A model generated the notes under the pieces. That model was given only the letters and a program-made list of their open reading frames with translations. It did not search any database and was not told the origin of the DNA. Position numbers and translations under genes: made by a program. From assembly GCF_947490405.1 (NCBI RefSeq), contig NZ_CANLGU010000001.1, positions 248,001-312,000 of the forward strand: DNA of 64,000 nt, written 5' to 3'. The stretch is from an uncultured Algibacter sp. Lineage in GTDB: Bacteria > Bacteroidota > Bacteroidia > Flavobacteriales > Flavobacteriaceae. Below, piece by piece: positions 9,320-62,933 of this stretch. How positions within the stretch are numbered: the stretch's first letter is position 1; the number at the start of each line of letters is the position of its first letter.

Positions 9320-9354
9320 TAAAGATAGAATTTGATACTCTTAGAGGTATCCTG
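9320..9354 (-). promoter_or_regulatory. CAGGATA-element promoter of the GH operon
   Basis: Reading the minus strand, CAGGATA (9354-9348) is followed after exactly 20 bp by TATCTTTA (9327-9320), five of six fixed positions of the Bacteroidota -7 box TAnnTTTG. A weak second unit (plus-strand TGTTCGG, 9358-9364) lies 10 bp further out. The plus-strand string TATCCTGTACT is identical to the one in front of the GntR gene at 62681. The element lies 67 bp upstream of the lipoprotein ATG, in the 98-bp gap shared with the divergent DUF6377 gene. The same layout occurs at 29125, 37602, 61497 and 62653. Confidence 0.65.
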
Positions 9355-9379
9355 TACTGTTCGGTAAAGTGTCTATTAG

Positions 9380-11083
9380 ATGATTAAGCATATAATAAAA
9401 AAAGAATTAACTTTGTTACATCTGCTTAAAATATTTTTTTTGAAAACACTATTTACTGTATGTATTTTAACATTTAGTTTTAGCTTATCAGGATTTAGTA
9501 ATAATAACCTAGATTCTTTATTAGTTGAACTTGAACGCACTATGAACAAAAGGATTGTTTTTGATAGTGCCAAAAAATTAAGAATTGAAAATTTAAAAAA
9601 ATTACTTAAAGAAAGCAATTCTACTTCACTTCAAAATAATTATTTTTTGATTAGTGAAATCATTAAGGAGTATGAAAAATATAGTTTTGATAAAGCACTA
9701 ATTTTTATTGAAAAAGGTTTAAATATCGCCAACACACTTAATGACGATAATTTAAAAAAAGAATCTCAATTAAAATTAGCAAAATTATTAGTTACTTCTG
9801 GAAGGTATAAAGAAGCTATAGATGTTTTACATGAAATAGAAAGACCTGAACTACCAGAAAAACTCTTAGATTTATACTACTACAATTACAAAGAAGGGTA
9901 TTCTGGATTAAGTTTTTACACAACTGTAAGTAACAGTAAAGAAAGCTACTCGAATCTTTATAAAATCTACCAGGATTCGTTGCAATTACGATTAACACCT
10001 AATTCTAATGAATCTTTGGCTTTGATTGAAAAAGAATTTCGAGATAATAGAGAAATTAAAAAAGCATTAGAAATTAATTCTAAGAGATTATCAAAAGTTG
10101 CATTAGGCACTCCAAATTATTCACTAATCACCTTTGAAAGATCACTATTATATGGGTTGAATAAAAATACAAACGAACAGAAAAAATATTTAATACTTTC
10201 CGCAATTTCTGACATAAGAGCATCAGTTAAAGACAATGCTTCGCTTACCGAATTAGCTATGATTTTATTTGATGAGGGAAACATAGAAAGGGCTCATGAT
10301 TTTATAGATTTTTCTGTTGAAGATGCTGAAATGTACAACTCTAGATTACGCTTTGTAAACATATCAAACAAACTGTCTGTGATATCAAAAGCTTATGAAG
10401 AAAAGAATTTGGAGCAACAAAATGAATTGAAAAGATTGCTCACTTTTATAAGCATTCTAGTATTATTTTTAGTTTTAACTATAATATATATATACCAACA
10501 GATTAAAAAACTATCTGCAGCACGTAAAGAGTTAAAAAAAGCCAATGATCAACTTTTAAGTTTAAACGAAAAATTAAGTTTTACAAACTCTGACCTTAAC
10601 AGGCTATACAATGAACTTTCTGACTCTGACAGGATAAAAGAACAATATATTGGCACTTTTTTAAATCTATACTCAGACTACATCAACAAACTAGACACTT
10701 ACCGTAAGATGGTAAGAAACTACCTTGTTTCTAATAAAACAAAAACACTACTCGAACTCACCAAATCCAAACAACTTGTTGACAACGAACTTAATATTTT
10801 TTATGAAAATTTCGATAAATCATTTCTCCATATTTACCCCAATTTTGTAGAATCAATAAACAAATTACTAAAGGAAGACCAACAAATAACACTTAAAGAC
10901 GAACAAAGTTTAAATACGGAATTAAGAATTTTTGCTCTTATCAGATTAGGTATTACTAGCAGTACTAAAATTTCTAAGATTTTACGGTACTCTGTAAACA
11001 CTATATATAATTATAGAGTAAAAGTTAAAAACAATGCTAAAAACAGAGACACTTTTGAAGATTCTGTAAAAAGAACATCTTAG
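9380..11083 (+). CDS. DUF6377-type membrane regulator with TPR-like sensor and C-terminal HTH
   Basis: 567 residues. An N-terminal signal or anchor segment (residues 16-35) is followed by an all-helical, TPR-like periplasmic region to about 345, one transmembrane helix (about 352-372), a coiled coil (about 375-410) and a cytoplasmic part ending in a helix-turn-helix (about 515-555). The HTH carries RLGITSSTKISKILRYSVNTIYNYR. This architecture is that of DUF6377 regulators, which sit beside SusC/SusD operons and are thought to sense imported glycans and switch on the neighbouring operon. It is followed by a SusC operon on the same strand and is divergent from the GH operon, so the rightward SusC-GH30 operon is the likely target. 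Confidence 0.85.
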   Translation: MIKHIIKKELTLLHLLKIFFLKTLFTVCILTFSFSLSGFSNNNLDSLLVELERTMNKRIVFDSAKKLRIENLKKLLKESNSTSLQNNYFLISEIIKEYEKYSFDKALIFIEKGLNIANTLNDDNLKKESQLKLAKLLVTSGRYKEAIDVLHEIERPELPEKLLDLYYYNYKEGYSGLSFYTTVSNSKESYSNLYKIYQDSLQLRLTPNSNESLALIEKEFRDNREIKKALEINSKRLSKVALGTPNYSLITFERSLLYGLNKNTNEQKKYLILSAISDIRASVKDNASLTELAMILFDEGNIERAHDFIDFSVEDAEMYNSRLRFVNISNKLSVISKAYEEKNLEQQNELKRLLTFISILVLFLVLTIIYIYQQIKKLSAARKELKKANDQLLSLNEKLSFTNSDLNRLYNELSDSDRIKEQYIGTFLNLYSDYINKLDTYRKMVRNYLVSNKTKTLLELTKSKQLVDNELNIFYENFDKSFLHIYPNFVESINKLLKEDQQITLKDEQSLNTELRIFALIRLGITSSTKISKILRYSVNTIYNYRVKVKNNAKNRDTFEDSVKRTS

Positions 11084-11167
11084 TATTATTCACAATTATT
11101 TATTCCTGAAAATCGTTATATTTTTCTCACATATGTAATATAAACATACTTTTAAAAAACCACTATT

Positions 11168-11256
11168 AATCTACTTTTTTTTATATATAAAAAATTACAA
11201 ATAAATGATTATCAGTTATTTATTTATTTTATAAACATTTTATAATCTACTTTTTT
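11168..11256 (+). repeat. Direct repeat upstream of SusC no. 1
   Basis: The 13-mer AATCTACTTTTTT occurs at 11168-11180 and again at 11244-11256, 76 bp apart, in the 277-bp gap between the DUF6377 gene and SusC. The second copy ends 10 bp before the -33 box of the SusC promoter. Position and repetition suit activator binding, for example by the adjacent DUF6377 protein; this is inference. The rest of the gap is AT-rich without a recognisable gene. Confidence 0.4.
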
Positions 11257-11266
11257 AATACTCTCA

Positions 11267-11299
11267 TTTGATAAACACATTTGTTAGGTTGTAAATTTG
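11267..11299 (+). promoter_or_regulatory. Promoter of the SusC-SusD-GH30 operon
   Basis: TTTG (11267-11270), a 21-bp spacer and TAAATTTG (11292-11299) match the Bacteroidota -33/-7 pattern exactly. Transcription would start near 11305, leaving a 5' leader of about 55 bases before the ATG at 11361. No CAGGATA element is present, which sets this operon apart from the five leftward promoters. Confidence 0.6.
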
Positions 11300-14297: not shown

Positions 14298-14308
14298 AAA
14301 ATTCAACT

Positions 14309-25536: not shown

Positions 25537-28500
25537 CTAAAAGGAATTTATTTTTAACTGAATAACATGTTTACCAGGTTCTAGTCTTATAGATTCAAAA
25601 GCAGATGGCACTTTTTCACCATTATGAATCAAATCTTTTCCATCCAAACCGTTTAAAGAAAACTCTGCTACCATATTGCCTGGTATTTCAACTTCATACG
25701 TTTGCAATCTGGCACCGTTATATGTGTACTTCCCTTTGATTGTGCCTCTTACCGTTGGCACTTCTATCATACTAGATTTTAAAGTACTCATTTGAGGCTT
25801 TATAGTTGCAACACCAAACCCAGGAGTTTTTGGTTGTATTCCCCACAAACCTCTTGGTATTACATTTGCGGGTACTGCACCCCAAGCGTGATTCCAATCT
25901 AAATTATTTTTGTACTTATTGTCCCAAGCTTCTAAAGTGATGGTAGAACCAATTTTTATCATGTTATACCAACTTCTATCTGAAGTATCGGTTAATAAGT
26001 CTAATGCATAATCAGCCTCACCTGCATTGTATAGACCATCCATTAAAAATTGCGCACCATAAACGCTACAAGCCATTCCTCGAGATTTCACATAATTTAC
26101 AACAGATTCAAAATGTTCTTCCGGCACTAAACCAAAAGCTAAAGGCATCATATTAGCATGAAGCGATGCATGGTCTGTACCAATACCATCAACATAAATC
26201 CCTCTTGTCTTATCAAACATTTGCTCATTTACTGCTTTTTTTGCTTTTGCAGCTCTTAATTCAAAATCTAAAACTTCTTGAGTTTTACCAAGAATTTTTG
26301 CGAATTCTGCCATGATTTTCATATTCTCATAAAAGAATGAATTAATCACAGTACTATAAGGTTTAAACACAAAGCCATCACGCTCGCCTTTAGTTTTGCT
26401 ACCATTAAAGTTTGGTCCTGGCCAATCAACAATATCAGTTAATGGCTTTTTATAGCCATCAGGAAAACCAAGTTTTTTCATGAAAGCAGCATCAACCTTT
26501 GTAGAGGTTATTAAACCATCTTCATTAGATAATTCGAATAACGATTTATGTTTTAAAGGCTCGTAATAACGCTCAATAAGCTCGGTATTCCCCGTATACA
26601 TGTAGTCAGCGTAAATTAATAATGGCACGTGTTGCTGCCACTCTGTTGGCCATGTTGGGTTTTTCATAAAATACTCGATAGTACGTCTTGCCATAGCATA
26701 TTCTCTATCGGTAGTATAATGACTTAGTTGATTTAAATATGCATCTGCTTCATACGGTATACGTTCTCTATCTCCATCAACATATAACCCATTAAAGGTT
26801 GTAGCTTTTATGGAATATTTACATAAGTCCCATACTTGGTTTAAGATGTTATTGTTACTCTCAAAACCGCTAGCGTTTTCATCCCAATAGGTATGAAATG
26901 CCAATTGGGTAAAATCTTCAGCGTTTAAATTGCTTTTAGCACCTTCAACCTCTGCATATCTAAATGGCACTAAAGGAGGAAAACCATTTGGCAGTGGTAC
27001 TGCTTTATTAGCTCTAGTGTTACGCTCATCTTGTTGAACTTGTATTTGATATTTGGTTTGTCCTGGTTTTACATCTACTTTAATTTCTTGGTAGCGAATA
27101 TTACTTTTCTTTGGTGGTGTTCTATTTACGCTACCATCGGTATTAACCATTTCGCCTACTCGAACTGTAAGTGTATGTGGTGTTTTTGCTGTATAGTTAA
27201 AATTCATAGTTGCAAAAGCAGCTTTTCCAAAATCAATAGTGTATAATTCTCCTTTTTTGTTAAACTTCACAGGCTTAACTTCAGTGGTTATAAATTTATT
27301 TTCTGTTGAAATTATATAGCTATCACTTTTTCCTGTAGTAAATTTTTGAGGCTCAGAATAATCAACTAACCTATTTTCTTGTTCCCAAATTCTAACTTTC
27401 CAATAGTATGTTCTTCCAATTTCTAAAGCAGTTCCGTTATATTCAACATCAGTAGATTTTGTTGATGCTACACGTCCACTATCCCAAACATCGCCATTAT
27501 TATTATCGATACTTGCTTTATTTGAAGCTACCAAAATTTGGTACGCACCTTGGTATTTAGAGCCCAGAGGTACCGTCCAACCAAACTCAGGTTTTAAATC
27601 AAAAATCTTAACATCTGTTGCAGGTTCTCTAATTAATTCTACAGTTAAATCTGTAGGCGCAGCTCTAAACGCATTGCTATTTTTCTTGATTAACTCGTCA
27701 AGCTTAGTTCTTAGTTTATTAGCTACTGTTTTGTATTTTTTCTTTCCAATTAGGTTTTTAATCTCTTGAGGATCTTTTTCTAAATCATAAAGTTCTTCGA
27801 TAGATTTATCGTTAACGTATCTAAAATACTTCCACTTTTTAGTTCTTACACCTTCACTTGGTGGAATATTTTTGAAATCCCAAATATGCTCGATTAAAAT
27901 TGTATCTCTAGCTATAGTATTAGTTTCTTGCTTTACTATTGGCAATAAACTTTTTCCCTGCCAAGTACTTGGTGCTTTAACACCCGCAATATCTACAATG
28001 GTTTGTGGCACATCTATATTAAGCACCATATCATCAACATCTTGATGTTTGTTTACTCTTGGGTCAAAGACAATTAAAGGTACACGAATAGAATTATCAT
28101 ACATTAACCATTTTCCAGCAAATTGGCGCTCTCCTAAAAAGTAACCGTTATCGCCCATTACAATGATAACAGTGTTTTTATCTTGCCCTGTTGCTTTAAG
28201 TTTTTCTCTAATTTTTTTAATTTCTATATCTATTCCAGAAATCATTCTATAATAGCCTTTTAAACTATGCTGATACTTTTCTGGAGTATCGTAACGCCAC
28301 GTCCAACGCAATCTATTAAACCCATCTCTTACAATTTTAGGTTGCGCTAAAAAGTACTTGTCGTCTCCTAATTCTGGATCTGGTATTGTTGTACTTTCTA
28401 ACATTTTGTCCATTTCAGATTGCCAGAAATATTGCTTAGGTGCACGGTCATGCGCATGTGGTGCACTAAAACTTAATGACAGGCAAAACGGTTTATCATT

Positions 28501-29124: not shown

Positions 29125-29169
29125 TAAAATTACAGTATTCTTACACATAACCTATCCTGCTGTATCCTG
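29125..29169 (-). promoter_or_regulatory. CAGGATA tandem-repeat promoter of the sulfatase-GH78 gene
   Basis: On the minus strand two perfect CAGGATA units (29169-29163 and 29159-29153) repeat with a 10-bp period. After 20 bp comes TAATTTTA (29132-29125), which matches TAnnTTTG at five of six fixed bases. Transcription would begin near 29118, about 55 bases before the ATG at 29064. Confidence 0.7.
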
Positions 29170-31888: not shown

Positions 31889-31937
31889 TTTTTTTGTTTT
31901 TATATAAGATTAAATCTTTTTTAACAATAACTTGATA

Positions 31938-32732: not shown

Positions 32733-32757
32733 AATATCTTAATTTTTCTAAATTATT

Positions 32758-34320: not shown

Positions 34321-34335
34321 AACTATTATTTTTTT

Positions 34336-37512: not shown

Positions 37513-37601
37513 TTTGAGTTTTAGTTTTAACATATTATAGTTTAATTTAGTAAAATGACTTTTAGAGTAAGCACTCATGTAAAGCCATAATAATATGGTA
37601 A

Positions 37602-51164: not shown

Positions 51165-52469
51165 CTATAAATCAAAAAGTCTTGGTAACCACATAGATAT
51201 CTCTGGAATGTAAGTAATTAGAAATAGAACAATAACCATAATAAGCAAAAACGGAAGTAAAGGTTTGACGACCTGAGATACAGAAACTTTGGCTATACCA
51301 CTACCCACAAAAAGGATAGTCCCAACTGGTGGTGTACATAAACCAATACATAAATTAAGTACTAACACAATACCAAAATGCACTGGATCCATGCCTAAAG
51401 CCACCACTACTGGCAAGAAAATAGGTGTAAATATTAATACTGCCGGTGTCATATCCATAAACGTTCCTATAATTAGCAATGTTAAATTAATCACTAAGAA
51501 AATAGCGAACTTACTGCTGAATTGTTCTAATAAAAAGTTACTCATTAATTCAGGAATACTTTCAAAAGAAAACAGCCAACTCATAGCCATAGATGTACAA
51601 ATTAAAAACATAACAACCGCAGTTGTTTTAGCACTATTAAGTAATATGTTAGGAAAATTTTTAATAGTAACATCTCTGTATATTAATGCAAGTATAGCAG
51701 CATACAATACTGCAATTACTGAGGCCTCTGTAGCTGTAAAAATACCAGCAACAATTCCACCTACAACAATAACAAGCATTAATAGACTAAAAAATGCTTT
51801 TCTAAAATGATTCCATACTTCTTTTAAAGTAGCACGTTGTCCTCTTACAAATCTTCTTCTGATGGCTACAAAAACAATGTATCCTATAAGAGCCAAACCT
51901 AACAATATTCCGGGTAAATACCCTGCAATAAACAAAGCAGCTACAGATGCTGTGCCTCCACTAGCCAATGCATATACTATTAAAATATTACTTGGAGGGA
52001 TTAACAACCCTGTTGTCGAAGATGTAATATTTACAGAAGCACTAAATTCCCTTGGGTAACCTTCTTCTTCCATTCTATCAGTCATAATACTCCCAATAGC
52101 AGATGTTGCTGCAATAGCACTTCCTGATATTGCTCCAAATAACATAGACGCTAAAACATTTACATATGCTAAACCGCCAGGTAAACTAGCCACTAAAGAT
52201 TTTGCAAAGTTTATGAGCCTATTTGCTATACCTCCTTGTTTCATAATTTCACCTGCTAAAACAAAAAACGGAATAGCTAAAAGAGCAAAACTATCAATAC
52301 CAGTAGTCATACGTTGTGCTATTGTTGTTAGCCCTGGTAACCTATCAATATTTAACAACAAACTTAATGTTGTAGAAATACCAATACTGTATGCCACTGG
52401 CACTTTAAGTAACAATAAAACAAAAAAACTAGCGAATAAAACGATAATACTTATGACTTCTATACTCAT
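51165..52469 (-). CDS. TRAP transporter large permease (DctM-type)
   Basis: 434 residues, about 12 hydrophobic segments, with DctM hallmarks SIPFFVLAGEIMKQGGIA and LLIPPSNILIVYA and the C-terminal PPVGTILFVGSGIAKVS. It forms the sodium-coupled channel of a TRAP importer together with the small permease encoded 2 bp upstream. Last gene of the uronate operon. With KduI, UxaC and UxuA in the same transcript, the cargo is probably a free uronate or unsaturated uronate crossing the inner membrane. Confidence 0.95.
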   Translation of the reverse strand: MSIEVISIIVLFASFFVLLLLKVPVAYSIGISTTLSLLLNIDRLPGLTTIAQRMTTGIDSFALLAIPFFVLAGEIMKQGGIANRLINFAKSLVASLPGGLAYVNVLASMLFGAISGSAIAATSAIGSIMTDRMEEEGYPREFSASVNITSSTTGLLIPPSNILIVYALASGGTASVAALFIAGYLPGILLGLALIGYIVFVAIRRRFVRGQRATLKEVWNHFRKAFFSLLMLVIVVGGIVAGIFTATEASVIAVLYAAILALIYRDVTIKNFPNILLNSAKTTAVVMFLICTSMAMSWLFSFESIPELMSNFLLEQFSSKFAIFLVINLTLLIIGTFMDMTPAVLIFTPIFLPVVVALGMDPVHFGIVLVLNLCIGLCTPPVGTILFVGSGIAKVSVSQVVKPLLPFLLIMVIVLFLITYIPEISMWLPRLFDL

Positions 52470-52471
52470 AA

Positions 52472-52963
52472 TTAATCTGTTATTTGATTTTTAGAAATTT
52501 GTGACATGTGAATAATTGAAAACCACATGATTAAAAGCCCACTTATTGGTAAAATAGCGTATATATAACCTAAAGGTATACGCAGCGTTCCTGATAGTTG
52601 CCCCAAGTGTAATGTTGTATATACTAAATTAAAACCTCCAACAACCATTACGATTAATGCAAATAGAAAAATAAATATTTCAATAAGAATAGATACTTTC
52701 TTTTTTGTTTTGTCAGAAAATTTTCTGTAGAGAAAATCCATAGAAAGATGCTCTCGCTTAGCATTTAAATAAGCAGCCCCAAGAATAGACATCCAGATTA
52801 GCGAAAACCTAGCTAACTCTTCCGTCCATGAAAATGACGCTTTCAATACGTATCTAGAAAATACTTGGAATAACACATCAAAAACCAGAAGTGTGAATAT
52901 GATAATTAAGAATACCTCCATAAACTTAACTACTTTACTAAAAATAGAATTAGATGTACTCAT
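52472..52963 (-). CDS. TRAP transporter small permease (DctQ-type)
   Basis: 163 residues with four membrane helices and the family motif FSWTEELARFSLIWMSILGAA. It starts 4 bp after the DctP stop and ends 2 bp before the DctM start, the standard P-Q-M order with near-overlapping genes. It bridges the substrate-binding protein and the large permease. Confidence 0.94.
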   Translation of the reverse strand: MSTSNSIFSKVVKFMEVFLIIIFTLLVFDVLFQVFSRYVLKASFSWTEELARFSLIWMSILGAAYLNAKREHLSMDFLYRKFSDKTKKKVSILIEIFIFLFALIVMVVGGFNLVYTTLHLGQLSGTLRIPLGYIYAILPISGLLIMWFSIIHMSQISKNQITD

Positions 52964-52967
52964 AATA

Positions 52968-53939
52968 TTAATTAGATTTTATGTCTTTAACTAATTGGAT
53001 AAGCTCTGGGTGATCTTTCTTAAATTCCTCTAAAACTGATTTAGATTGATCTGCAAACAGTGATTTTTCAGGAATTATAATTTCTACACCAGCTTCTTTG
53101 GCAATTTTCATACTTTCATCAACAGAAGATTTCCAAAATTGTTTTTGTGCTTGCGCAGATTCATTGGCAGCTTCTTGCACCCAAGTCTTTTCTTGATCTG
53201 ATAATTTTTCCCATTGTTTTGTACCAATAAGCAAAACGTCTGGTACAGAAGAGTGTTCATCTAAAGTGTAATACTTACTTATTTCGTAATGATTAGAAGA
53301 CACAAACGATGGTGGGTTGTTTTCAGCCCCATCAACAACACCTTGTTGAATAGCTGTATATAATTCGCCATAAGCCATTGGTGTAGCTGCTCCTCCTAAA
53401 GAATTCACCATATTAATGGCCATTTGATTGTTCATTACTCTAATCTTCAAGCCTTTCAAATCTTCAGGTGTTCTTACTGCTTTATTAGAAGTATAAAAGC
53501 TTCTACTACCAGCATCATAATAACACAAACCGCGAAGCCAAAACTTTTCCCCTTTTTCTAATATAGATTTACCAACAGGTCCTTCTAAAATATCAAACAT
53601 ATGAGCCTTATCTCTAAATAAATAAGGAATTCCAAGTACGTGATATTCTGGCACAAAGTTAGACAAGGTGGCCGCACTTACTTTGGTTATTGCCACACTA
53701 CCTATTTGTAATAGTTCAAGTACCTCTCGCTCTGAACCTAATTGGGCATCAGGAAATATTTTAATAGTTAAATCGCCATTAGATTTTTGGTTTAATATCT
53801 TTTGAAATTCTACTATCCCCTTGTGTACAGGGTGTGTTTGTGGTAAAGTATGGGCTAAGTACAATACTTTTTCATCAGCATTTTGTTTACATGCAAATAA
53901 ACTTATGCATAACATTATCAACAATAGTTTATTCTTCAT
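52968..53939 (-). CDS. TRAP transporter substrate-binding protein (DctP-type), lipoprotein
   Basis: 323 residues. An N-terminal lipobox (ISLFAC, Cys17) means that the binding protein is probably tethered, unlike many free periplasmic DctP proteins. LAHTLPQTHPVHKG opens the mature protein; GLKIRVMNNQMAINMVNSLG carries the conserved ligand-binding Arg, and TPMAYGELYTAIQQGVVDGAEN is the family signature. The ligand is probably a uronate, judged from the operon. It is preceded by an 86-bp gap with a TATATTTG box that may give the transporter genes their own start. Confidence 0.94.
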   Translation of the reverse strand: MKNKLLLIMLCISLFACKQNADEKVLYLAHTLPQTHPVHKGIVEFQKILNQKSNGDLTIKIFPDAQLGSEREVLELLQIGSVAITKVSAATLSNFVPEYHVLGIPYLFRDKAHMFDILEGPVGKSILEKGEKFWLRGLCYYDAGSRSFYTSNKAVRTPEDLKGLKIRVMNNQMAINMVNSLGGAATPMAYGELYTAIQQGVVDGAENNPPSFVSSNHYEISKYYTLDEHSSVPDVLLIGTKQWEKLSDQEKTWVQEAANESAQAQKQFWKSSVDESMKIAKEAGVEIIIPEKSLFADQSKSVLEEFKKDHPELIQLVKDIKSN

Positions 53940-53982
53940 ACTAATTTTAGTTTAAAATTTATTGGTTTTAACAGGTTCAAAA

Positions 53983-53990
53983 CAAATATA
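53983..53990 (-). promoter_or_regulatory. Possible internal -7 box before the TRAP genes
   Basis: TATATTTG on the minus strand, an exact match to TAnnTTTG, 44 bp before the DctP ATG in the only sizeable gap (86 bp) of the uronate operon. No matching -33 element is visible, so it may be weak or chance. Confidence 0.3.
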
Positions 53991-54025
53991 CCAAAATGGC
54001 ATTGTCAGTTGTCTCACCTTAATTT

Positions 54026-55429
54026 TTACTTAAATTTAAAATAGTTTTTGGCATTATAATAACAAATATCCTGAACCATTTTACCTAATAATTTTATATC
54101 ATTAGGCAACAATCCTTGTTTTACATCCTCTCCAATAATGTTGCACAAAATGCGTCTAAAATATTCATGTCTTGTAAATGATAAGAAACTTCTACTATCT
54201 GTTAACATACCCACAAAACGACTTAGAAGCCCCATGTTGGACAAACAGTTTATTTGTTTTTCCATACCATCTTTTTGATCTAAAAACCACCAACCAGAAC
54301 CCCATTGCATTTTTCCTGGAACTCCTCCTTCACTATAATTTCCCATCATAGTTGCAAACACTTCGTTTTGCGATGGGTTTAAATTATAAGAAATTGTTTT
54401 TGCTAATTGATTTGTTCCATCTAGTCTGTTAAAGAGTTTAGACATAGCTTTAGCTGCTGGAAAATCTCCTATAGAATCTACTCCAGCATCTAAACCTACT
54501 TGGTTTAACAACCTATCATTGTTATTTCTTATAGCTCCTACATGAAACTGTTGCACCCATCCTTTATCGTGATACATTTTACATAATTTATCTAAGATAC
54601 AAGATGCATAAATACTAACGTCTTTATTAGATATTTCATCACCTAACAAACGTTTCTTAAAAATAATATCAGCCGCCTCCTCTGTATAATCAGCAGCATA
54701 TATTTCTTCCATTCCATAATCAGATAAACGACAACCTGCAGCATCAAAATAGTCAATTCTACTTTCTATAGCTTTTAATAAATCGCTGAGAGACTCAATA
54801 GAAAAACCAACACAACTAGATAATTTATTAATATATGTGTTAAAGTTTTCTTTTTTTATAAATAACAATGCATCTGGTCTAAACGTTGGAAAAACCTTAG
54901 TAAAGAACTCTTTCTCTGATATTTCTTTGTGATACTTTAAATCATCAATCGGATCATCTGTTGTACAGATGACTTCAACCTTCATATCTTCTAAAAGTTG
55001 AGCAGGTGTTTTATTTTCTAGAACTGTATTTGCCTTCTTGTAAATATCTTCTGCAGTATTAGGGCTAAGTAAATCATCTATCCCGAAATAGCGCTTTAAT
55101 TCCAAATGTGTCCAATGATACAAAGGGTTTCTTAAAGTATATGGCACGGTTTCAGCCCACTTTAAAAACTTTTCTTTTTTTGCAGTTGCAGAGCCTGTAA
55201 TAAAAATTTCCTCTATACCATTAGCCCGCATAGCTCTCCATTTGTAATGGTCTCCGTCTAACCAAGCATCTGTAATGTTTTTTATAGGTAAATTCTCAGC
55301 AATTTTTTGTGGTGATAAATGATTATGATAATCTAGAATGGGTAAATCCTTTGCAAAATTATGATATAACTTTTCAGCAATATCAGATTGTAAGATGAAG
55401 TTAGTTGTTATAAAATTGGCTGTTTCCAT
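54026..55429 (-). CDS. uxaC: Uronate isomerase
   Basis: 467 residues, amidohydrolase fold. LDYHNHLSPQKIAENLP supplies the metal-binding HxH; QFHVGAIRNNNDRL, GMLTDSRSFLSFTRHEYFRR and ICYYNAKNYFKF are typical of UxaC over its whole length. It converts D-glucuronate to D-fructuronate (and galacturonate to tagaturonate) in the cytoplasm. With the reductase at 60453 and UxuA at 58280, glucuronate is routed to 2-keto-3-deoxygluconate. It starts 8 bp after the DUF4861 gene. Confidence 0.96.
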   Translation of the reverse strand: METANFITTNFILQSDIAEKLYHNFAKDLPILDYHNHLSPQKIAENLPIKNITDAWLDGDHYKWRAMRANGIEEIFITGSATAKKEKFLKWAETVPYTLRNPLYHWTHLELKRYFGIDDLLSPNTAEDIYKKANTVLENKTPAQLLEDMKVEVICTTDDPIDDLKYHKEISEKEFFTKVFPTFRPDALLFIKKENFNTYINKLSSCVGFSIESLSDLLKAIESRIDYFDAAGCRLSDYGMEEIYAADYTEEAADIIFKKRLLGDEISNKDVSIYASCILDKLCKMYHDKGWVQQFHVGAIRNNNDRLLNQVGLDAGVDSIGDFPAAKAMSKLFNRLDGTNQLAKTISYNLNPSQNEVFATMMGNYSEGGVPGKMQWGSGWWFLDQKDGMEKQINCLSNMGLLSRFVGMLTDSRSFLSFTRHEYFRRILCNIIGEDVKQGLLPNDIKLLGKMVQDICYYNAKNYFKFK

Positions 55430-55437
55430 GTATTACT

Positions 55438-56616
55438 TTAATTGAAGATAACCTCTAATGGGTTATTTACTTTTTTGGTAAATGTTTCTAGATAATTATT
55501 CCACGACTCTTTAGATATAAATTCATTTGCTTTTTTCCATCCAAATCCCGCATAATATATCACTTTCCCCTCATTTACTTTAATATTAGCGTATAGATTA
55601 CTCCAATCTTTGGCAGAAGTATCAAACAATTTACTAGATATCATGTTATTGTTTGGTACTACAATTGCTGTTCCCAATTCTGAATCATCATGTGGTTCCC
55701 AGTAAGATATATATCCAGCATCTTTATTTTGTGTATCAACACCATCTTTCTCATGCAATGTTAAACCAACTTGCACACGGTCAGTTCCTAATATTTCAAC
55801 CTCAAATCTTGATAAATTACTACCATAATCTAAAGAAATATATTTTGTTTCGGAAATAGCATTACCATCAGCATCCCAATCGGCATATTCTAACATAAAA
55901 CTCGTTCTTAAAGGGCCTGTAGTAATAGTTTTCCATTTTGTAAAATTCCTAGACACATAATATGTGGTGTCTATTTGTACAGCTATTCCTCCAACACCTC
56001 TACTAACACCTACGTGAAAATTATCTAATCCATCTCCAATGTCTTGATGATACGCTCCTTTTTTCTCATCATTCCTTTTGTACCATTTGTTTATAATTGG
56101 AGTTTCTACGCGTTTTAACCATGCATCAATACCACTTGATAATGTTCCGCCTTTCACATTATCTTCTACCATTTTTTGGGCTACAGGACCAAAAGTTCTG
56201 AATGCTACTTTATTATTTTCCCAAGCATAATCGTCAGTCCTTTCTGGAACAAACCTAGAATAACAGTATTCTATTAGCTCTGGCTTTTCATCAGCATTTA
56301 CTTTAGAAAGTTTGTATTGCGCTTCAGAATTTGCTTCTATTTTAGGTTGAAACAATAACATATCAGCATTTCCATCTTGATTTGAATCTACTACTTGAGA
56401 TACCAAAACTTTATTTGTCTTAATATCTATGACACCAATATCTTCAATACTCATTCCCTCTGATAAAAGGACATCAGTTACACTAATCTCAACAGTTTCA
56501 AAACTCCTTGGTATATCCAAAGTGTTTTTTACAGTAATAATTTGTTTTGCTTCGTTCTCACAATTAAAAAACACAAAAAGAAGAATAAATAAAGCAGGTA
56601 TTGATATTGTTTTCAT
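55438..56616 (-). CDS. DUF4861 lipoprotein
   Basis: 392 residues with lipobox FVFFNC (Cys19). The mature part (ITVKNTLDIPRSFETVEIS onward) is a beta-sandwich-like DUF4861 protein, with RTFGPVAQKM, GVSRGVGGIAVQID and AGFGWKKANEF among the conserved-looking blocks. DUF4861 genes recur in loci for uronate-containing polysaccharides, yet I know of no established activity for this one. It is exported although all surrounding genes are cytoplasmic enzymes, and it is tightly packed: 1 bp after kduD and 8 bp before uxaC. A periplasmic role in preparing the uronate for the TRAP transporter is a guess. Confidence 0.8.
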   Translation of the reverse strand: MKTISIPALFILLFVFFNCENEAKQIITVKNTLDIPRSFETVEISVTDVLLSEGMSIEDIGVIDIKTNKVLVSQVVDSNQDGNADMLLFQPKIEANSEAQYKLSKVNADEKPELIEYCYSRFVPERTDDYAWENNKVAFRTFGPVAQKMVEDNVKGGTLSSGIDAWLKRVETPIINKWYKRNDEKKGAYHQDIGDGLDNFHVGVSRGVGGIAVQIDTTYYVSRNFTKWKTITTGPLRTSFMLEYADWDADGNAISETKYISLDYGSNLSRFEVEILGTDRVQVGLTLHEKDGVDTQNKDAGYISYWEPHDDSELGTAIVVPNNNMISSKLFDTSAKDWSNLYANIKVNEGKVIYYAGFGWKKANEFISKESWNNYLETFTKKVNNPLEVIFN

Positions 56617-56617
56617 T

Positions 56618-57412
56618 TTATTCTTCGTTTGATGGTTTACCTATAGTGGCCAAAATACCGCCATCTACATAAAGTATATGACCGTTTACAAAATCACTAG
56701 CTTTTGATGATAAGAATATTGCAGCTCCTGCTAAATCATCAGGATCACCCCACTTAGCAGCAGGTGTTCTATTTACAATGAAATCATTAAATGGATGTCC
56801 TTCAACTCTGATTGGAGCTGTTTGTGAGGTAGCAAAATACCCTGGACCAATACCATTTATTTGAATATTGTGTTTTGCCCATTCAGTCGCCATGTTTTGG
56901 GTAAGCATTTTGAGCCCGCCTTTGGCTGCAGCATAAGCACCAACACTATTACGACCTAACTCACTCATCATAGAGCAAATGTTAATTACCTTTCCTTCTT
57001 TTCTATCAATCATACCCTTTACAACATGCTTAGATACGATAAAAGGGCTTACCAAATCTATGTCTATTACTTGTTTAAAGTCTTCAACCTCCATTTCAAT
57101 AAGCGGAGTTCGTTTTATGATTCCTGCGTTATTAATCAAAATATCTATTTGCCCAATTTCTTGCTCAATTTTAGAAATAGCTGCAATAACCTGAGCTTCA
57201 TCAGCTACATTAAACTTATAACCAACAGCATTTATACCTTCGCTTTTATATTCAGCTACGGCTTTATCTATTTTTTCTTGAGACGAGTTACCATTTACAA
57301 TAATAGTAGCTCCAGCAAGACCTAAACCTCTAGCCATAGCCATACCTAAACCATGTGTACTACCAGTAACTAAAGCATTTTTACCTTTTATATCGAATAA
57401 TGAAATACTCAT
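56618..57412 (-). CDS. kduD: SDR oxidoreductase, 2-deoxy-D-gluconate/5-keto-gluconate-type dehydrogenase (KduD-like)
   Basis: 264 residues, classical SDR. TGSTHGLGMAMA (NAD-binding glycine motif), NNAG, Ser in INICSMMSELG, and the catalytic YAAAK at about 155-159. C-terminal YVDGGILATIGKP. Directly after kduI, it would reduce 2,5-diketo-3-deoxygluconate to 2-keto-3-deoxygluconate, completing use of the unsaturated uronate released by GH105 and GH88. A gluconate 5-dehydrogenase annotation is the close alternative. Confidence 0.9.
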   Translation of the reverse strand: MSISLFDIKGKNALVTGSTHGLGMAMARGLGLAGATIIVNGNSSQEKIDKAVAEYKSEGINAVGYKFNVADEAQVIAAISKIEQEIGQIDILINNAGIIKRTPLIEMEVEDFKQVIDIDLVSPFIVSKHVVKGMIDRKEGKVINICSMMSELGRNSVGAYAAAKGGLKMLTQNMATEWAKHNIQINGIGPGYFATSQTAPIRVEGHPFNDFIVNRTPAAKWGDPDDLAGAAIFLSSKASDFVNGHILYVDGGILATIGKPSNEE

Positions 57413-57415
57413 AAT

Positions 57416-58258
57416 TTATCTTAGTTCATTTATTTTAGCGACATCCATATCTCCATAATCTAAATTCTCACCTGCCATACCCCAGATAAAAGTATAATTA
57501 GATGTACCTGAACCAGAGTGAATAGACCATGGTGGAGAAATTACTGCTTGATGATTTTGCATCCAAATATGCCTTGTTTCTTGCGGTTCTCCCATAAAAT
57601 GACAAACTGACTGTCCTTCCATAATATCAAGATAATAATACACCTCCATTCTACGATCGTGAACATGCGCTGGCATTGTATTCCATACACTACCTGTTTT
57701 AAGTTCCGTCATACCCATTTGAAGTTGACATGTATCCACAATACCTCCAATAATTTGTTGGTTTACCGTACGATGATTTGCCGTTTCTAAAGAGCCTAAT
57801 TCAATTTTATTAGCATCTGCTTTACTTACTTTTTTCGTTGGAAATGTTTTATGTGCTGGTGCAGAATTTATATAAAACTTAGCTGGATTACTTTTATCTA
57901 AGCTTTTAAAAATAACATTTTCTATACCTCTTCCAATGTAGAGCGCATCTTTTAAGGTAAGTTCAAATATCTCCCCATCCACCTCAACTGTTCCATCTCC
58001 ACCAACATTGATGATCCCCATTTCTCTTCTTTCCAAGAAATATGAAGCCTTTAATGGATCAATAGTTTCTAATGTAATTGGTGCATCAACAGGAACTGCA
58101 GATCCTGCAACATATCTATCATAATGCGTATATACCAAAACTAATTGATCCTCTGTCATTAAATTATCAATTAAAAATTCATCTCTTAATTCTTTTGTAT
58201 CGTAAGCTTTAACTGCTTTAGGACTACTTGCGTAACGTGTTTCGTAATGTGTTTTCAT
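57416..58258 (-). CDS. kduI: 5-dehydro-4-deoxy-D-glucuronate isomerase
   Basis: 280 residues. MPAHVHDRRMEVYYYLD and the later HIWMQNHQAVISPPWSIHSG carry the metal-binding His and Glu of the KduI cupin. It isomerises the open-chain form of the unsaturated uronate to 2,5-diketo-3-deoxygluconate. It lies 3 bp before kduD and 21 bp after uxuA. Its presence in this operon is strong evidence that a lyase-type pathway feeds it. Confidence 0.96.
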   Translation of the reverse strand: MKTHYETRYASSPKAVKAYDTKELRDEFLIDNLMTEDQLVLVYTHYDRYVAGSAVPVDAPITLETIDPLKASYFLERREMGIINVGGDGTVEVDGEIFELTLKDALYIGRGIENVIFKSLDKSNPAKFYINSAPAHKTFPTKKVSKADANKIELGSLETANHRTVNQQIIGGIVDTCQLQMGMTELKTGSVWNTMPAHVHDRRMEVYYYLDIMEGQSVCHFMGEPQETRHIWMQNHQAVISPPWSIHSGSGTSNYTFIWGMAGENLDYGDMDVAKINELR

Positions 58259-58279
58259 TTGAAAAAATGTGTTTTGATA

Positions 58280-59455
58280 TTATATAGTATGTTTTAAACC
58301 GTATTCTAGACCTCTCAATTCAGCTAAACCACGTAATCTTCCAATTCCTGAATACCCAGGGTTGGTTTTTTTATTCAAATCGTCAAGCATTTGGTGTCCA
58401 TGATCGGGCCTAACTGGAATAGCAAAATCAGTATATCCTGCTTCTTGTCGTCTCTTTTCTTCAATTAGTATTTCTTTTACAACACTGTACATATCTACAT
58501 CTCCGTCCAAGTGATTGGCTTCATAGAAATTGCCTACTTCATCCCGCTTTGTACTTCTTAAGTGTAAAAAGTGTGCTCTATCAGCAAATCGTTTGAAAAT
58601 ATTTACCAAATCATTATCTGCTCTTACACCTAATGAGCCAGTACAGAATGTAATACCATTAGCTCTATCTGGAACATTTTCAAATAGATAAGCATAATCT
58701 TCTTCTGTACTAACAACTCTTGGTAATCCTAAAATAGGGTAAGGTGGATCATCAGGGTGAATACACATTAATACTCCATTTTTAGATGCCACAGGAATAA
58801 TTTCCTTTAAAAAAGACACTAAATTCTCTCTTAATGCTTGAGCATCTATATCTTTGTATGTATCTAGTATAGTTTGAAATTGCTCTAAAGTATATCCTTC
58901 TTCAGCCCCTGGTAAACCAGCAATGATATTGTTAACCAATTTTGTTTTACCATTATCTGATAAGCTGTCAACATAGGCTTTGGCAGCCTTTTGTTGTGCA
59001 TCTGAATATGCATTTTCAGCTCCTGGACGTTTGAGCAAAAACAACTCAAAAGCAGCAAATGCAATTACATCAAAACGCAATGCTCTAGAACCATCTTCTA
59101 CTTTAAAACCTAGATCAGTTCGTGTCCAATCTAGAACTGGCATAAAATTATAACAAACTATATTTATATCACATTTTGCTAAATTCTCGATGCTTTTTTT
59201 GTAGCGATCTACATAGATTTCAAATTGTCCTGAACGTGTTTTTATATTCTCATGAACTGGGATACTTTCAACTACATTCCAATTTAAACCTTCGCTTTCT
59301 ATAGCAGACTTTCTCTTTTGAATTTCATCCACAGTCCATACCTCTCCATTTGGAATATGGTGCAATGCAGAAACAACACCTGTTGCACCTGCTTGTTTTA
59401 TATCTGATAAAGATACGGGATCATTTGGTCCGTACCATCTCCATGTCTGTTCCAT
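58280..59455 (-). CDS. uxuA: Mannonate dehydratase
   Basis: 391 residues, full-length Uxu[21 protein letters not shown] and [15 protein letters not shown] open the barrel; [29 protein letters not shown], and [10 protein letters not shown] carry the metal-binding His and Cys residues. It dehydrates D-mannonate to 2-keto-3-deoxygluconate. It lies one base after the Gfo/Idh gene, so the two are translationally linked. Confidence 0.96.
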
Positions 59456-59456
59456 T

Positions 59457-60434
59457 TTATATTATTTCTTTTTTTGTGAATTCTTGCATTAATTTCGTAA
59501 CCAATCTACCGTCTTCAACTGGACAAGGGTTACTTCGTTTTCCTAGAAAATAATTAACTGTTTCATGAATCATGGGGAACTGTATATTTTCTGGATTTTT
59601 AAATTCGAAAGTTTTATTTATTTTAGTTGAATTAAGTATGAGTTTTTCCTTGTAAAAGGAAATCTCAATCGTTCCATTTTCCCCATAAATAACACAACGA
59701 TCTTCTTCTAAATCATAGGGAATAGCAAAAGACCACATACCGCGGAATTGAATATTATTTTTAAAGCTTATTATTCCATTAACCGTATCATCAACATTAT
59801 TTATTTTTGACTGATTTACTGAAATGCCTTTTGCAATATCATAATCTCCAAAAAAATAATACATCAAATCTATTTGATGAGGAGCTATATCGTGAAAATA
59901 CCCACCTCCAGATATTTCTTTATCCAATCTCCAAGTGGCTTTATCATTAAAATCATAAGGCTGCAAAAACCTCAAGTCTACAAATTTTATATCACCTATA
60001 GTATTGCTATTTATTAATTCTTTAACCTTAACATACATTGGCAAAAACCTACGATAATGTGCAACTACTAACTTTTGAGTACTCTTATGAACAGCATCCC
60101 GTAATATTACTGCCTCTTCATCATTAATAGCCATTGGCTTTTCAATGTATACATTTTTACCTGCATCTAAAGCTTTTAATGCATATTCTAAATGTGTAGA
60201 TGGTGGTGTTGCTATATATATAGCATTAATATCTGGATTAGCTAGAAGTTCATCTGCATCATTATACCATAATGGTACATTATGACGTTTAGCAAAATCC
60301 TCAGCTAAGTCCCCATTACGCCGCATAACAGCAAGCAATTTAGAATTATCGCATTTTTGAAATGCAGGACCACTTTTAACCTCAACTACATCCCCACATC
60401 CAATAACTCCCCAAGTAACTGAATCGTTAATCAC
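59457..60434 (-). CDS. Gfo/Idh/MocA-family oxidoreductase
   Basis: 325 residues. An N-terminal Rossmann fold ([20 protein letters not shown]) is followed by IATPPSTH, the [11 protein letters not shown] motif and the [21 protein letters not shown] block that carries the catalytic-type His/Asp. The start codon is GTG at 60434; no ATG gives the full Rossmann motif. Substrate unknown. Its tight placement between the fructuronate-reductase-like SDR and UxuA suggests a uronate oxidation or epimerisation step, possibly for L-iduronate from ulvan, which is a hypothesis. Confidence 0.88.
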
Positions 60435-60452
60435 TATCTTTAAGATTTTAAA

Positions 60453-61280
60453 TTAAACGCCACTGTATGCACTAAAACCTCCATCAATAGGAATAACAAC
60501 ACCTGTTACAAATGAAGCACCTTCACTACACAACCATAATGTTGTACCCACTAAATCTTCAGGCTCTCCAAATTTACCCATAGGTGTTTGGTCTATTATC
60601 TGGTTTCCTCGCTCTGTTAAGCTTCCATCTGCATTTGTTAACAAGGCTCTATTTTGCTCTGTTAAGAAAAAACCAGGAGCCAAAGCATTTACTCTAATAT
60701 TAACTTTTGAAAAGTGTACAGAAAGCCATTGAGTAAAATTTGAAACAGCAGCTTTTGCACCACTGTAAGCTGGTATTTTAGTTAAAGGTGTAAAGGCATT
60801 CATAGAAGAAATATTCAAAATGCTACACCCTATTCTCCCCACCATATCTTCAGCAAAAATTTGAGTTGGCAAAAGTGTCCCTATAAAATTTAAATTAAAT
60901 ACAAATTGTATCCCTTTTGGATCTAAATCAAAAAAAGTTTTAAACCCTTCAGTGGTATTCTTTAAATCTTCTAATTGTAAAAAGGGATTCGTAGTTGTTC
61001 CCAGAGGGTGGTTTCCTCCAGCACCGTTAATTAAGATATCACATTTACCAAAAGACTTATTAACCTCCTCTTTTGCGGCAATTAATGAATCTTTTTCTAA
61101 TACATTTGCTTCAACTCCTATGGCTGTCCCTCCTGCTTTGTTTATCTTTTCTGCAGCTTCCAAAGCCGCCTCTTTGTTTAAATCTAACAAAGCTATACGA
61201 TTGCCTTGTTTTGATAGTGCCTCTGCCAGTGTACTACATAGCACACCTCCTGCACCAGTAACTACTATTGTTTTACTCAT
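60453..61280 (-). CDS. SDR oxidoreductase, probable fructuronate reductase (UxuB-like, SDR type)
   Basis: 275 residues. TGAGGVLCSTLAEALSKQG is the nucleotide-binding motif; INGAGGNHP replaces the usual NNAG; SSMNAFTPLTKIPAYSGAK supplies Ser, Tyr and Lys. The insertion TTTNPFLQLEDLK and the end PIDGGFSAYSGV match SDR-type D-mannonate oxidoreductases known from uronate operons of Bacteroidota and Firmicutes. It would reduce D-fructuronate to D-mannonate for UxuA. First gene of the uronate operon, behind an unusually long leader of about 210 bases and a CAGGATA promoter. Confidence 0.85.
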   Translation of the reverse strand: MSKTIVVTGAGGVLCSTLAEALSKQGNRIALLDLNKEAALEAAEKINKAGGTAIGVEANVLEKDSLIAAKEEVNKSFGKCDILINGAGGNHPLGTTTNPFLQLEDLKNTTEGFKTFFDLDPKGIQFVFNLNFIGTLLPTQIFAEDMVGRIGCSILNISSMNAFTPLTKIPAYSGAKAAVSNFTQWLSVHFSKVNIRVNALAPGFFLTEQNRALLTNADGSLTERGNQIIDQTPMGKFGEPEDLVGTTLWLCSEGASFVTGVVIPIDGGFSAYSGV

Positions 61281-61496: not shown

Positions 61497-61551
61497 CAAA
61501 TATAACCAACAAGGTAATTTGCGCCGTCCTGCTCCATCCTGCTCTATCCTG
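61497..61551 (-). promoter_or_regulatory. CAGGATA triple-repeat promoter of the uronate operon
   Basis: On the minus strand CAGGATA (61551-61545), CAGGATG (61541-61535) and CAGGACG (61531-61525) repeat with a 10-bp period. After 20 bp comes TATATTTG (61504-61497), an exact -7 box. No TTTG lies at the -33 position, which the proximal unit nearly occupies, suggesting activator-dependent transcription. It is the best copy of the element in the window. Confidence 0.75.
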
Positions 61552-61581
61552 AAAAAGAATATGTTTTTAAAAAGTCAGTCT

Positions 61582-62583
61582 TTAGAGCGAATCTCTTAAG
61601 ATTAAGTCAGTTATCAGATAAGACTTTACTGGATTTTTAGAAGTAATAAACTCCGCAACTTTAGCCCCAAACTCTTTAAAATCAATTGAAATTACTGAAA
61701 TACCCTTATAAGTAAATCGCTTTAAAGGCGTATCATTATAAGACAATATTCCTACATCCCTACCTAACTCATAATCTATATCATTACATTGCCGCAAAAG
61801 CTCATAAAGTACACGGTCATTCACACAAATATAAGCTGTACTTTTCTTTACAATTAGCGATTTTGAATCATCACATATTGAATAGTCAAAATGATTTTTA
61901 ACACAAAATCTTTTAAAATACTCAACGCTTTCATAAGGATGATGTGTAAACTCTGGATATACAAAACTTAATTCTTTATATTTTCTAAATAAGTGTGAAG
62001 CTTTTTCTAAACACGAATAAAAAGCTTTCCCAAAATCCTGAAAAACATAGTTACCCTTTTCACTTAAATTAGCTTTCCAATCTATCAACAAAAGTTTTTC
62101 TGAATCAATTTTTGACAAACTCTCAATAACTTCCTGATCATCAAAACCCATTACAATATACTTATAATACTTTCCGCTATCAACATTTAACATGGTCTTG
62201 AAGTTTTTTATGTTGTAATGATGAAATTGCAAGTCAACAATTACATCATCAGGCATATAACTCATAAAAGAATGATAAAAAACTTCCTTGTAGGCTTTAA
62301 AAGTACTTATTAGAAGCAAAACTTTTTTTCTACTTTCACTTATATAATACCCTTTATTCGGAGTTGCTTTTATATACCCTTGTTTTTTTAATAATGTATA
62401 GGCTTTAAAAACAGTATCTCTAGAAATATTATATTCTTTACTAAATTCATTTATGGAAGGGATACTATCTCCAGAACTAAAAGTATTTATCTCAATAGAT
62501 TCTTTAAAGGCATTAACCACCTTCATGTATTTCGGAATGTTATTCCCGTTGATATTTTTTAGAACAATTCTCTGATCAACCAT
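61582..62583 (-). CDS. GntR-family transcriptional regulator with periplasmic-binding-protein-like sensor domain
   Basis: 333 residues from the ATG at 62583 (MVDQRIVLKNINGNNIPKYM). A frame open to 62643 adds 20 residues, but that ATG lies almost on the predicted transcription start, so the inner start is preferred. Residues about 10-80 form the GntR winged helix (SIPSINEFSKEYNISRDTVF, ATPNKGYYIS); the rest resembles a LacI-type ligand-binding domain (CVNDRVLYELLR, VGILSYNDTPLKRFTYKGIS). The promoter carries the CAGGATA element, so it probably controls itself and the operon 300 bp downstream. The effector may be a uronate intermediate or a sugar; not determinable here. Confidence 0.88.
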   Translation of the reverse strand: MVDQRIVLKNINGNNIPKYMKVVNAFKESIEINTFSSGDSIPSINEFSKEYNISRDTVFKAYTLLKKQGYIKATPNKGYYISESRKKVLLLISTFKAYKEVFYHSFMSYMPDDVIVDLQFHHYNIKNFKTMLNVDSGKYYKYIVMGFDDQEVIESLSKIDSEKLLLIDWKANLSEKGNYVFQDFGKAFYSCLEKASHLFRKYKELSFVYPEFTHHPYESVEYFKRFCVKNHFDYSICDDSKSLIVKKSTAYICVNDRVLYELLRQCNDIDYELGRDVGILSYNDTPLKRFTYKGISVISIDFKEFGAKVAEFITSKNPVKSYLITDLILRDSL

Positions 62584-62652
62584 TTTGGAAAACTCAATAT
62601 ATTTATCATTAGAACCTAGATTATAGTCATAGAAAACAAACATCTAGTGCTT

Positions 62653-62687
62653 CAAAGAAATTATAAAAAATAGAATTGTCTATCCTG
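62653..62687 (-). promoter_or_regulatory. CAGGATA promoter of the GntR gene
   Basis: On the minus strand CAGGATA (62687-62681) is followed after 20 bp by TTTCTTTG (62660-62653), five of six fixed bases of TAnnTTTG. A recognisable second unit is lacking (plus-strand TTTCTGA, 62691-62697, is poor). The 11 bases TATCCTGTACT on the plus strand equal those at 9348-9358. Suggests autoregulation. Confidence 0.6.
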
Positions 62688-62933
62688 TACTTTCTGAACA
62701 ATCAGAAAAACACTTGTTCATTAATAAACTTCAAGAAAGCTTAAGTAATTAGCTTACGCTGTTATTTCAGAATATAAAATCATTCTTTAAACCCCATCAA
62801 AAAAAGGAGAAATAAAAATAAGCTTAAAATTTTATTTTTTAATGTTAGTAGATATTATAAGTAGATTAGCAAACATCTTCTTCTGTTTAAATGAAGCCCT
62901 ACATAATACTATTGAAAATAGAGCTTTGGTTTA
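62688..62933. other. Intergenic region between the GntR promoter and the tRNA terminator
   Basis: AT-rich sequence in which I see no gene, repeat or regulatory element. It separates the polysaccharide locus from the housekeeping genes to the right. Confidence 0.5.

Follow-up and report, generated by a model that had tools for sequence, protein, structure and literature searches.

A CAGGATA direct repeat as the candidate operator of a GntR-type rhamnose regulator in Algibacter and related flavobacteria

A 64,000-nucleotide (nt) stretch of DNA from an uncultured Algibacter sp. (contig NZ_CANLGU010000001.1, positions 248,001 to 312,000; here, the window) carries a locus for use of the green-algal polysaccharide ulvan in which five promoters share the element CAGGATA. 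We found that this element forms part of a direct-repeat pair, that it stands 20 bp ahead of a -7-like box, and that its occurrence across flavobacteria follows one clade of GntR-type regulators encoded beside genes for L-rhamnose catabolism. The explanation that best fits these sequence comparisons, and one we consider probable, is that a GntR-type L-rhamnose regulator, for which we use the name RhaR-G, binds the element as its operator and unites the use of rhamnose, uronates and ulvan.

RhaR-G, encoded beside the rhamnose operon, would combine a winged-helix GntR domain with a LacI-type sugar sensor. Two protomers would read two same-direction units of 7 to 8 bp, one helical turn apart (CAGKAYA-GTA-CAGGATA), in an operator that faces the gene and whose proximal unit ends 20 bp ahead of the -7 box. 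With a rhamnose-derived ligand bound, the protein would act as a class-II-like activator in place of a -33 element. The proposed regulon would comprise rhamnose catabolism, ulvan lyases, a sulfatase-GH78 enzyme, one SusC/SusD pair, GH43/GH3/GH105 genes, the uronate operon and the uronate GntR gene. If so, the cell could run the whole ulvan pathway from one switch.

A direct repeat at a fixed distance from the -7 box

All five minus-strand sites proposed in an initial annotation of the window are present, including the variant units CAGGATG and CAGGACG of the fourth (Table 1). The 20-bp gap between proximal unit and octamer, also proposed there, is exact at five of five promoters, and the octamers agree with TAnnTTTG at 5, 5, 5, 6 and 5 of the six fixed bases at operators 1 to 5. 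The paired and triple sites stood as described; the two sites read as single, at 9354 and 62687, each have a degenerate unit 10 bp upstream (4/7 and 3/7), and the list of further CAGGATA copies had omitted 3396, 9202 and 10630 on the plus strand and 36039 on the minus strand. The window holds 15 copies of CAGGATA where 6.85 are expected, a number reached by 1 of 100 shuffles. With the spacing included (CAGGAYR-N20-TAnnTTTG, at least 5/6), there are 6 occurrences against a shuffle mean of 0.23, and 0 of 200 dinucleotide shuffles reach 6. One of the six, at 3396 on the plus strand, lies within a long open reading frame (ORF) and is evidently a chance occurrence.

The geometry was measured over 1.04 Mb comprising the window, stretches around GntR genes and stretches around tandem sites. 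There, 82 of 474 CAGGAYR copies are followed by the octamer at gap 20, the peak of the distribution, and the other gaps average 7.2; the highest count elsewhere, 44, was taken to be that at gap 30, which corresponds to the distal unit of a tandem. Four control motifs show no peak at gap 20 (4/204, 0/89, 1/134 and 0/51). The profile of 81 sites, which includes the chance site at 3396, reads CAGKAYA-GTA-CAGGATA-S, followed by 20 unconstrained bases and TAnnTTTG. Because this profile includes the distal unit, the element consists of two direct repeats at a spacing of one helical turn, and sites that look "single" are pairs in which the distal unit is weak. In this unfiltered profile, the distal unit has C in 86%, G in 79% and A in 90% of sites at -10, -8 and -6; means of 5.2 to 5.6 of 7 derive from sites that were required beforehand to match at 4/7. 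A third unit at offset -20 (at least 5/7) occurs in 4 to 6% of sites. A palindrome, sought by eye on the profile only, was not seen.

A similar picture emerges from 67 near-perfect intergenic operators of the genus set. TAnnTT stands at gap 20 in 40 of them, against a mean of 1.34 elsewhere (highest 7, at gap 10), and a box of at least 4/6 is found at that gap in 55; in the opposite orientation, these operators show no comparable gap peak. The box is the TAnnTTTG -7 box of the Bacteroidota primary-sigma promoter. At four sites (L124 8780, L132 2401, L136 2162 and L151 13445), the exact 20-bp position holds TAnnTTGY instead of TAnnTTTG; TAnnTTGY is described as the SM5 promoter type of Flavobacterium psychrophilum (PMC9723704). 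A rigid distance to the -7 box, together with a fixed orientation, would also suit recognition of CAGGATA by an alternative sigma factor as part of its core promoter. We regard this as very improbable, since the unit recurs with a 10-bp period, the -7 box corresponds to the published primary-sigma consensus (PMC9723704), and the occurrence of the element tracks a GntR clade.

In the window's own genome (G000) there are three copies of the perfect tandem CAGGATA-N3-CAGGATA, two of them within the window, and none of a reversed-pattern control. The third copy (G000:C4:367066-367082, in L147) precedes a Wzy_C O-antigen-ligase-like gene and has a poor -7 box (3/6); it is either chance or an unexpected target, and we leave it unexplained. 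With one mismatch allowed, nine of ten genus genomes together hold 73 tandem sites, compared with 2 for the reversed pattern; G005 has 0 tandem sites, and its GntR match is weak (3.6e-4). Among 119 genomes of the order, the exact tandem is found in G000 (3) and G011 (1) only, both of which have a GntR match. Of the checks suggested with the initial annotation, the comparison with related ulvan loci showed the same spacing kept.

The GntR clade that accompanies the element

A tree of 44 proteins joining a GntR domain to a LacI-type sensor comprises clade A, the type found in the window (10), clade B (21), clade C (12) and one long-branch row (L121). Sites that score at least 16 and lie within about 8 kb of the GntR gene are present at 15 of the 17 loci of clade B, 5 of the 10 of clade A, none of the 12 of clade C and not at the single L121 locus. 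The rule overlooks one clade-A locus, L087, in which the units either read CAGGACG or are weak in the distal half. Unsupervised k-mer ranking placed CAGGAT at that spacing at the top for clade B, tied with the overlapping ACAGGA, in 13 of 15 loci (two siteless loci excluded). De novo k-mers at fixed gaps for clades A and C were mostly AT-rich background and were discarded. A second set consisted of the best 80 loci of named flavobacteria among 539 relatives, selected blind to the motif, of which at least three (L163, L166 and L170) also belong to genomes of the first set. By a fixed rule, 77 of these 80 clade-B loci have the canonical site, whereas no other gap between 5 and 44 gives more than 33 of 80. 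The -7 box in many Flavobacterium loci is the weaker TTATTTTA (4/6).

The neighborhood of clade B points to rhamnose. In the window's own genome, clade B is encoded at G000:C1:86528-88903, about 160 kb before the window, beside a rhamnose operon. Neighbors of clade B include the bifunctional rhamnulose-1-phosphate aldolase/dehydrogenase RhaEW (above the NCBIfam cut-off), rhamnose isomerase and L-lactate dehydrogenase (best NCBIfam matches, below cut-off), and a gene read from its sequence as rhamnulokinase, with no NCBIfam match. Two tandem clade-B genes stand by this operon (8002-10410 of L084, G000:C1:78500-96900), and tandem pairs occur likewise in G007 (L089), G008 (L096) and G009 (L092). 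Among the 80 named loci, RhaEW is found in 73, RhaI in 74 and a RhaB-like kinase in 74; their 112 scored sites include 47 placed up to 700 bp ahead of RhaEW, 2 ahead of a transporter and 3 ahead of GntR. Across the order, RhaEW is present in 11 of the 119 genomes, all of them within the 16 that have a GntR match; six of the 11 are represented by clade-B rows in the tree, and the GntR protein of G014 is 58% identical to clade B. Encoded with catabolic genes and with a site in their promoter, clade B would by its neighborhood be a rhamnose regulator. An AusR-like identity for clade B was dropped since its neighbors are rhamnose genes.

The window GntR matches PF00392 and PF13377 above cut-offs, that is, a GntR winged helix and a LacI-type sensor. 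The structural model of a clade-B protein (L105) has a predicted local distance difference test score (pLDDT) of 89, and the PDB structures it resembles most are CcpA, LacI and other LacI-family proteins; the protein has an N-terminal GntR winged helix and a C-terminal LacI-type sensor. Clade B aligns to the window GntR across the DNA-binding half, which suggests a GntR-type rather than an AraC-, DeoR- or LacI-type reader. The presumed recognition helix is SRDTVEKAY in clade B and SRDTVFKAY/FKSY in clade A (SRDTVFKAY in the window GntR), and it is different in clade C. We take CAGTATAGTACAGGATAG as the predicted binding sequence of the clade-B protein.

The initial annotation named two possible binders, neither of which is supported as the sole one. 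The hybrid two-component system (HTCS) at 46766-50794 shares the locus and might contact the element through its AraC-type domain. We reject this candidate, the least probable of those weighed here: a similar HTCS is found in 1 of the 80 named clade-B loci, against 77 with the element, and no scored-type site precedes either the HTCS or the SusC gene at 46287.

The clade-A GntR of the window is an unlikely main reader, although it adjoins operators 4 and 5 and could autoregulate from 62687. Of 72 intergenic sites, three have CAGGACG as the proximal unit, and each of these is at a KduD promoter in a genome with a uronate-type GntR (G000, G007 and G009), which would suit such a role. Set against it are genomes G001 to G004, which have no clade-A match yet hold 29 of the 73 near-perfect tandem sites of the genus; together with a KduD site in G002, where clade A is absent, they led us to reject this protein as the sole binder. 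Five of the ten clade-A loci, moreover, have no site by the scoring rule, and other clade-A genes bear a different repeat, CAGAACAGAACGG. The window GntR may read CAGGACGG, the CAGGACG variant, at the uronate operon, though the numbers are small. Judged from these distributions, the likely binder of the element is clade B and not the GntR adjoining the sites.

Algibacter marinivivus (G002) provides a natural experiment, as its sole GntR match is clade B. It has nine near-perfect tandem sites. Sites in this genome precede four PL28 ulvan lyases, a sulfatase-GH78 gene like that of the window and two BNR_4 proteins; others precede a 3-keto-disaccharide-hydrolase-family protein, two proteins without a Pfam match, a 1072-aa protein and RhaEW. 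The canonical KduD site stands at its uronate operon (L256). Because the G002 sites occur with clade B as the only GntR, neither the window-type GntR nor the HTCS is needed to explain the element. In the window's own genome, just left of the window (L086), operators precede a BNR_4/PLH30 protein, a PL28 ulvan lyase and a protein without a Pfam match, with -7 boxes of 3/6, 4/6 and 5/6, respectively. Ulvan is composed of rhamnose sulfate, glucuronate or iduronate, and xylose. A rhamnose signal would be sensible for the window locus because ulvan contains rhamnose sulfate. The conserved spacing and the target families in related ulvan loci support the proposal, made in the initial annotation, of one regulon joining depolymerization, import and catabolism.

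Sign of control and the repeats of paralogous regulators

Whether RhaR-G would activate or repress is a closer matter, and we lean slightly toward activation. A center near -41 is the position type of activators that touch polymerase. In F. psychrophilum, the -7 box is described as spanning -12 to -5 (PMC9723704); taking this placement, the operator would extend from about -49 to -33, with its center near -41. The exact spacing over unrelated promoters also favors polymerase contact, and the "activator-type" arrangement of the initial annotation is plausible. The MocR proteins, also of GntR type, are described as often binding direct repeats, and several of them activate (PMC5320631).

A number of points weigh against RhaR-G as an activator acting through this element. 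GntR proteins are described as generally binding palindromes (PMC5320631), and AusR, the GntR regulator of an alginate polysaccharide utilization locus (PUL), as a repressor (PMC7874173, PMC8286568, PMC8073546). Several clade-A paralogues have CAGAACAGAACGG about 5 to 10 bp past the -7 box, a placement that implies repression. The interval between operator and -7 box holds no conserved base in the 81-site profile, and 413 generic intergenic TAnnTTTG boxes are likewise without a -33 signal, so that the absent -33 element is uninformative. Twelve of the 67 near-perfect intergenic operators score below 4/6 at gap 20, 60 of the 112 scored sites in the named loci precede genes without an assigned identity, and the KduD loci of G001, G003, G005, G006 and G008 are without a site. 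In the order, the one-mismatch tandem occurs in 42 of 119 genomes, including the GntR-less G028 and G097 with 9 to 10 matches; because of these, the bare tandem is unspecific by itself. Clade-B-like GntR genes outside the window's family have no convincing site within about 1.5 kb (L071-L075, L266-L286, L289, L290 and L292), with one weak score, at L274, although sites are present in G125 (L117), a member of another family.

Most GntR sugar regulators repress. Clade B could do the same by covering the -33 region and releasing it once a rhamnose product is bound, similar to AusR in the control of alginate use, and we give this a substantial chance, somewhat short of even. AusR is described as a GntR repressor with one, two or three operator copies, the repeats of the clade-A paralogues lie just past the -7 box, and those of the galactose-type paralogues have looser gaps of 17 to 20 bp. 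A pure repressor, however, would not need the exact 20-bp spacing, which is kept at many unrelated promoters.

These paralogous repeats have letters of their own. In clade C, the tandem CTRGTAGG-N2-CTRGTAGG, with a 10-bp period, is present at 10 of 12 loci (Table 1). A full TAnnTTTG box follows 17 to 20 bp on in 9 of 11 such tandems (a gap of 19 counted from an 8-mer corresponds to 20 from a 7-mer), and 8 of 11 also have TAnnTTTG on the other strand at 12 to 48 bp, as shared intergenic regions would. Clade-C genes adjoin galactokinase- and GalT-like genes (above NCBIfam cut-offs in L101), and with neighbors of this kind a role as alginate regulator was dropped. Non-uronate clade-A genes carry CAGAACAGAACGG-like repeats, with a period of 5/10, between the -7 box and the start codon; three of these loci (L083, L088 and L094) adjoin xylose isomerase and xylulokinase (in L083, XylA is above and XylB below cut-off). 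Since clades A and C carry their own repeats, the same architecture recurs with other letters. A crude test for 8-mer repeats at distance 10 was positive in 5 of 9 clade-A and 8 of 11 clade-C cases; on the 80 named loci it gave no clear peak (39 at distance 10, 42 at 6 and 38 at 18). Extending the 10-bp grammar to a wider class failed, with such a repeat in 3 of 29 clade-B-like genes, not above other distances.

A broader reading can be put forward tentatively, and as a whole it is doubtful. The GntR/LacI-sensor family of Flavobacteriia would read head-to-tail repeats spaced by one helical turn, each clade with letters of its own: CAGGATAG for rhamnose, CAGGACGG for uronate, CAGAACGG for xylose and CTRGTAGG for galactose. 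The rhamnose and galactose types, at the -33 place, would be class-II-like activators, the xylose types, past the -7 box, would be repressors, and one sugar signal would command the ulvan program through the rhamnose type. Opposite control could then come from one protein scaffold because operator placement differs, and the paralogue repeats would amount to a small recognition code.

Window features and comparison with known systems

TABLE 1 Operators, -7-like boxes and target genes of the window, with the repeat loci of paralogous regulators
Feature	Position	Strand	Description
Operator 1	9348..9364	minus	Proximal CAGGATA 9354-9348; degenerate distal ccgaaca 9364-9358 (4/7)
-7-like box TATCTTTA	9320..9327	minus	5/6 fixed bases, 20 bp past operator 1
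Target gene run 1	1776..9281	minus	257-aa protein without Pfam match, GH43, GH3, GH88-family protein, sulfatase
Operator 2	29153..29169	minus	Two perfect CAGGATA units (29153/29163), 10-bp period
-7-like box TAATTTTA	29125..29132	minus	5/6, 20 bp past operator 2
Target 2	25537..29064	minus	Sulfatase fused to GH78 alpha-L-rhamnosidase
Operator 3	37630..37646	minus	Two perfect CAGGATA units (37630/37640), 10-bp period
-7-like box TAAAATTG	37602..37609	minus	5/6, 20 bp past operator 3
Target gene run 3	30830..37578	minus	SusC, SusD, 264-aa protein (no Pfam match at 1e-6), fasciclin-domain protein
Operator 4	61525..61551	minus	CAGGATA (61545), CAGGATG (61535), CAGGACG (61525), 10-bp period
-7-like box TATATTTG	61497..61504	minus	6/6, 20 bp past operator 4
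Target gene run 4	51165..61280	minus	KduD-like SDR, Gfo/Idh/MocA, UxuA, KduI, second SDR, DUF4861, UxaC, TRAP transporter
Operator 5	62681..62697	minus	Proximal CAGGATA 62687-62681; strongly degenerate distal tcagaaa (3/7)
-7-like box TTTCTTTG	62653..62660	minus	5/6, 20 bp past operator 5
Target 5	61582..62643	minus	Clade-A GntR with LacI-type sensor (PF00392 + PF13377)
Clade-C CTRGTAGG loci	L114, L111, L107, L119, L115, L095, L090, L103, L101, L099		
Clade-A CAGAACAGAACGG-like loci	L083 8969-8995, L088 9028-9055, L094, L097, L106, L110		

The genes of run 1 would be cotranscribed, and its GH88-family protein is the GH105 of the initial annotation. The SusC gene of run 3 probably starts at ATG 37578, the first ATG in the long ORF, or later, because the -7 box sits within the ORF as read from TTG 37623. 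In run 4, TRAP DctP was assigned by Pfam, and two TRAP membrane parts and the second SDR were read from sequence. Target 5 would be a uronate regulator and is probably not the main reader of CAGGATA. A SusR-family regulator (NCBIfam NF058541; 9380-11083) is divergent from operator 1 and is followed by a separate gene run (11361-21375), SusC/SusD-like and hydrolase-like by reading, without scored CAGGATA operators. Such operators are also absent from the HTCS and a second SusC/SusD-like pair (41653-46287, by reading), and two control systems therefore seem to share the window locus.

How scattered PUL genes are coordinated with central sugar catabolism in marine Bacteroidota is little known. 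RhaR-G would tie degradation of ulvan to a rhamnose signal, and the exact operator geometry yields a testable list of target promoters in many flavobacteria. None of the titles and abstracts listed by searches of open-licence papers describes this operator or a flavobacterial GntR-type rhamnose regulator.

The system closest in setting is AusR of the Zobellia galactanivorans alginate utilization system, described as a GntR-family regulator of a flavobacterial PUL with single, double or triple operator copies (PMC7874173, PMC8286568, PMC8073546). The element shares this variation, with two units as the rule and three at operator 4. It differs from AusR, compared here by description only, in the substrate (ulvan and rhamnose), in a candidate regulator encoded by the rhamnose operon and in the fixed distance to the -7 box. 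Should the AusR operator (Dudek et al. 2020) prove similar in sequence, the novelty of the element would be lower.

The rhamnose regulators surveyed by Rodionova et al. (2013), of AraC, DeoR and LacI types, likewise control operons for rhamnose isomerase, kinase and RhaEW, and the sites of the DeoR-type RhaR are also imperfect direct repeats with a periodicity of 10 to 11 bp (PMC3870299). The rhamnose regulator of Bacteroides thetaiotaomicron is reported as AraC type (PMC3878776). GntR is named zero times in the text of the broad Rodionova et al. survey of rhamnose regulons (PMC3870299), whereas the regulator proposed here would be a GntR/LacI-sensor fusion whose regulon reaches ulvan depolymerization and uronate catabolism.

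The MocR-type proteins GabR, TauR and PdxR similarly place a GntR winged helix on direct repeats, and several are activators; as described, however, their C-terminal domain is aminotransferase-like rather than LacI-like, and their repeats lie two or three turns apart rather than one (PMC5320631). PdxR is the best NCBIfam match of the DNA-binding half of the window GntR, far below cut-off. AraR of Bacillus subtilis has the same domain architecture, a GntR domain with a LacI-type sensor, and binds palindromic operators, whereas the operators described here are direct repeats.

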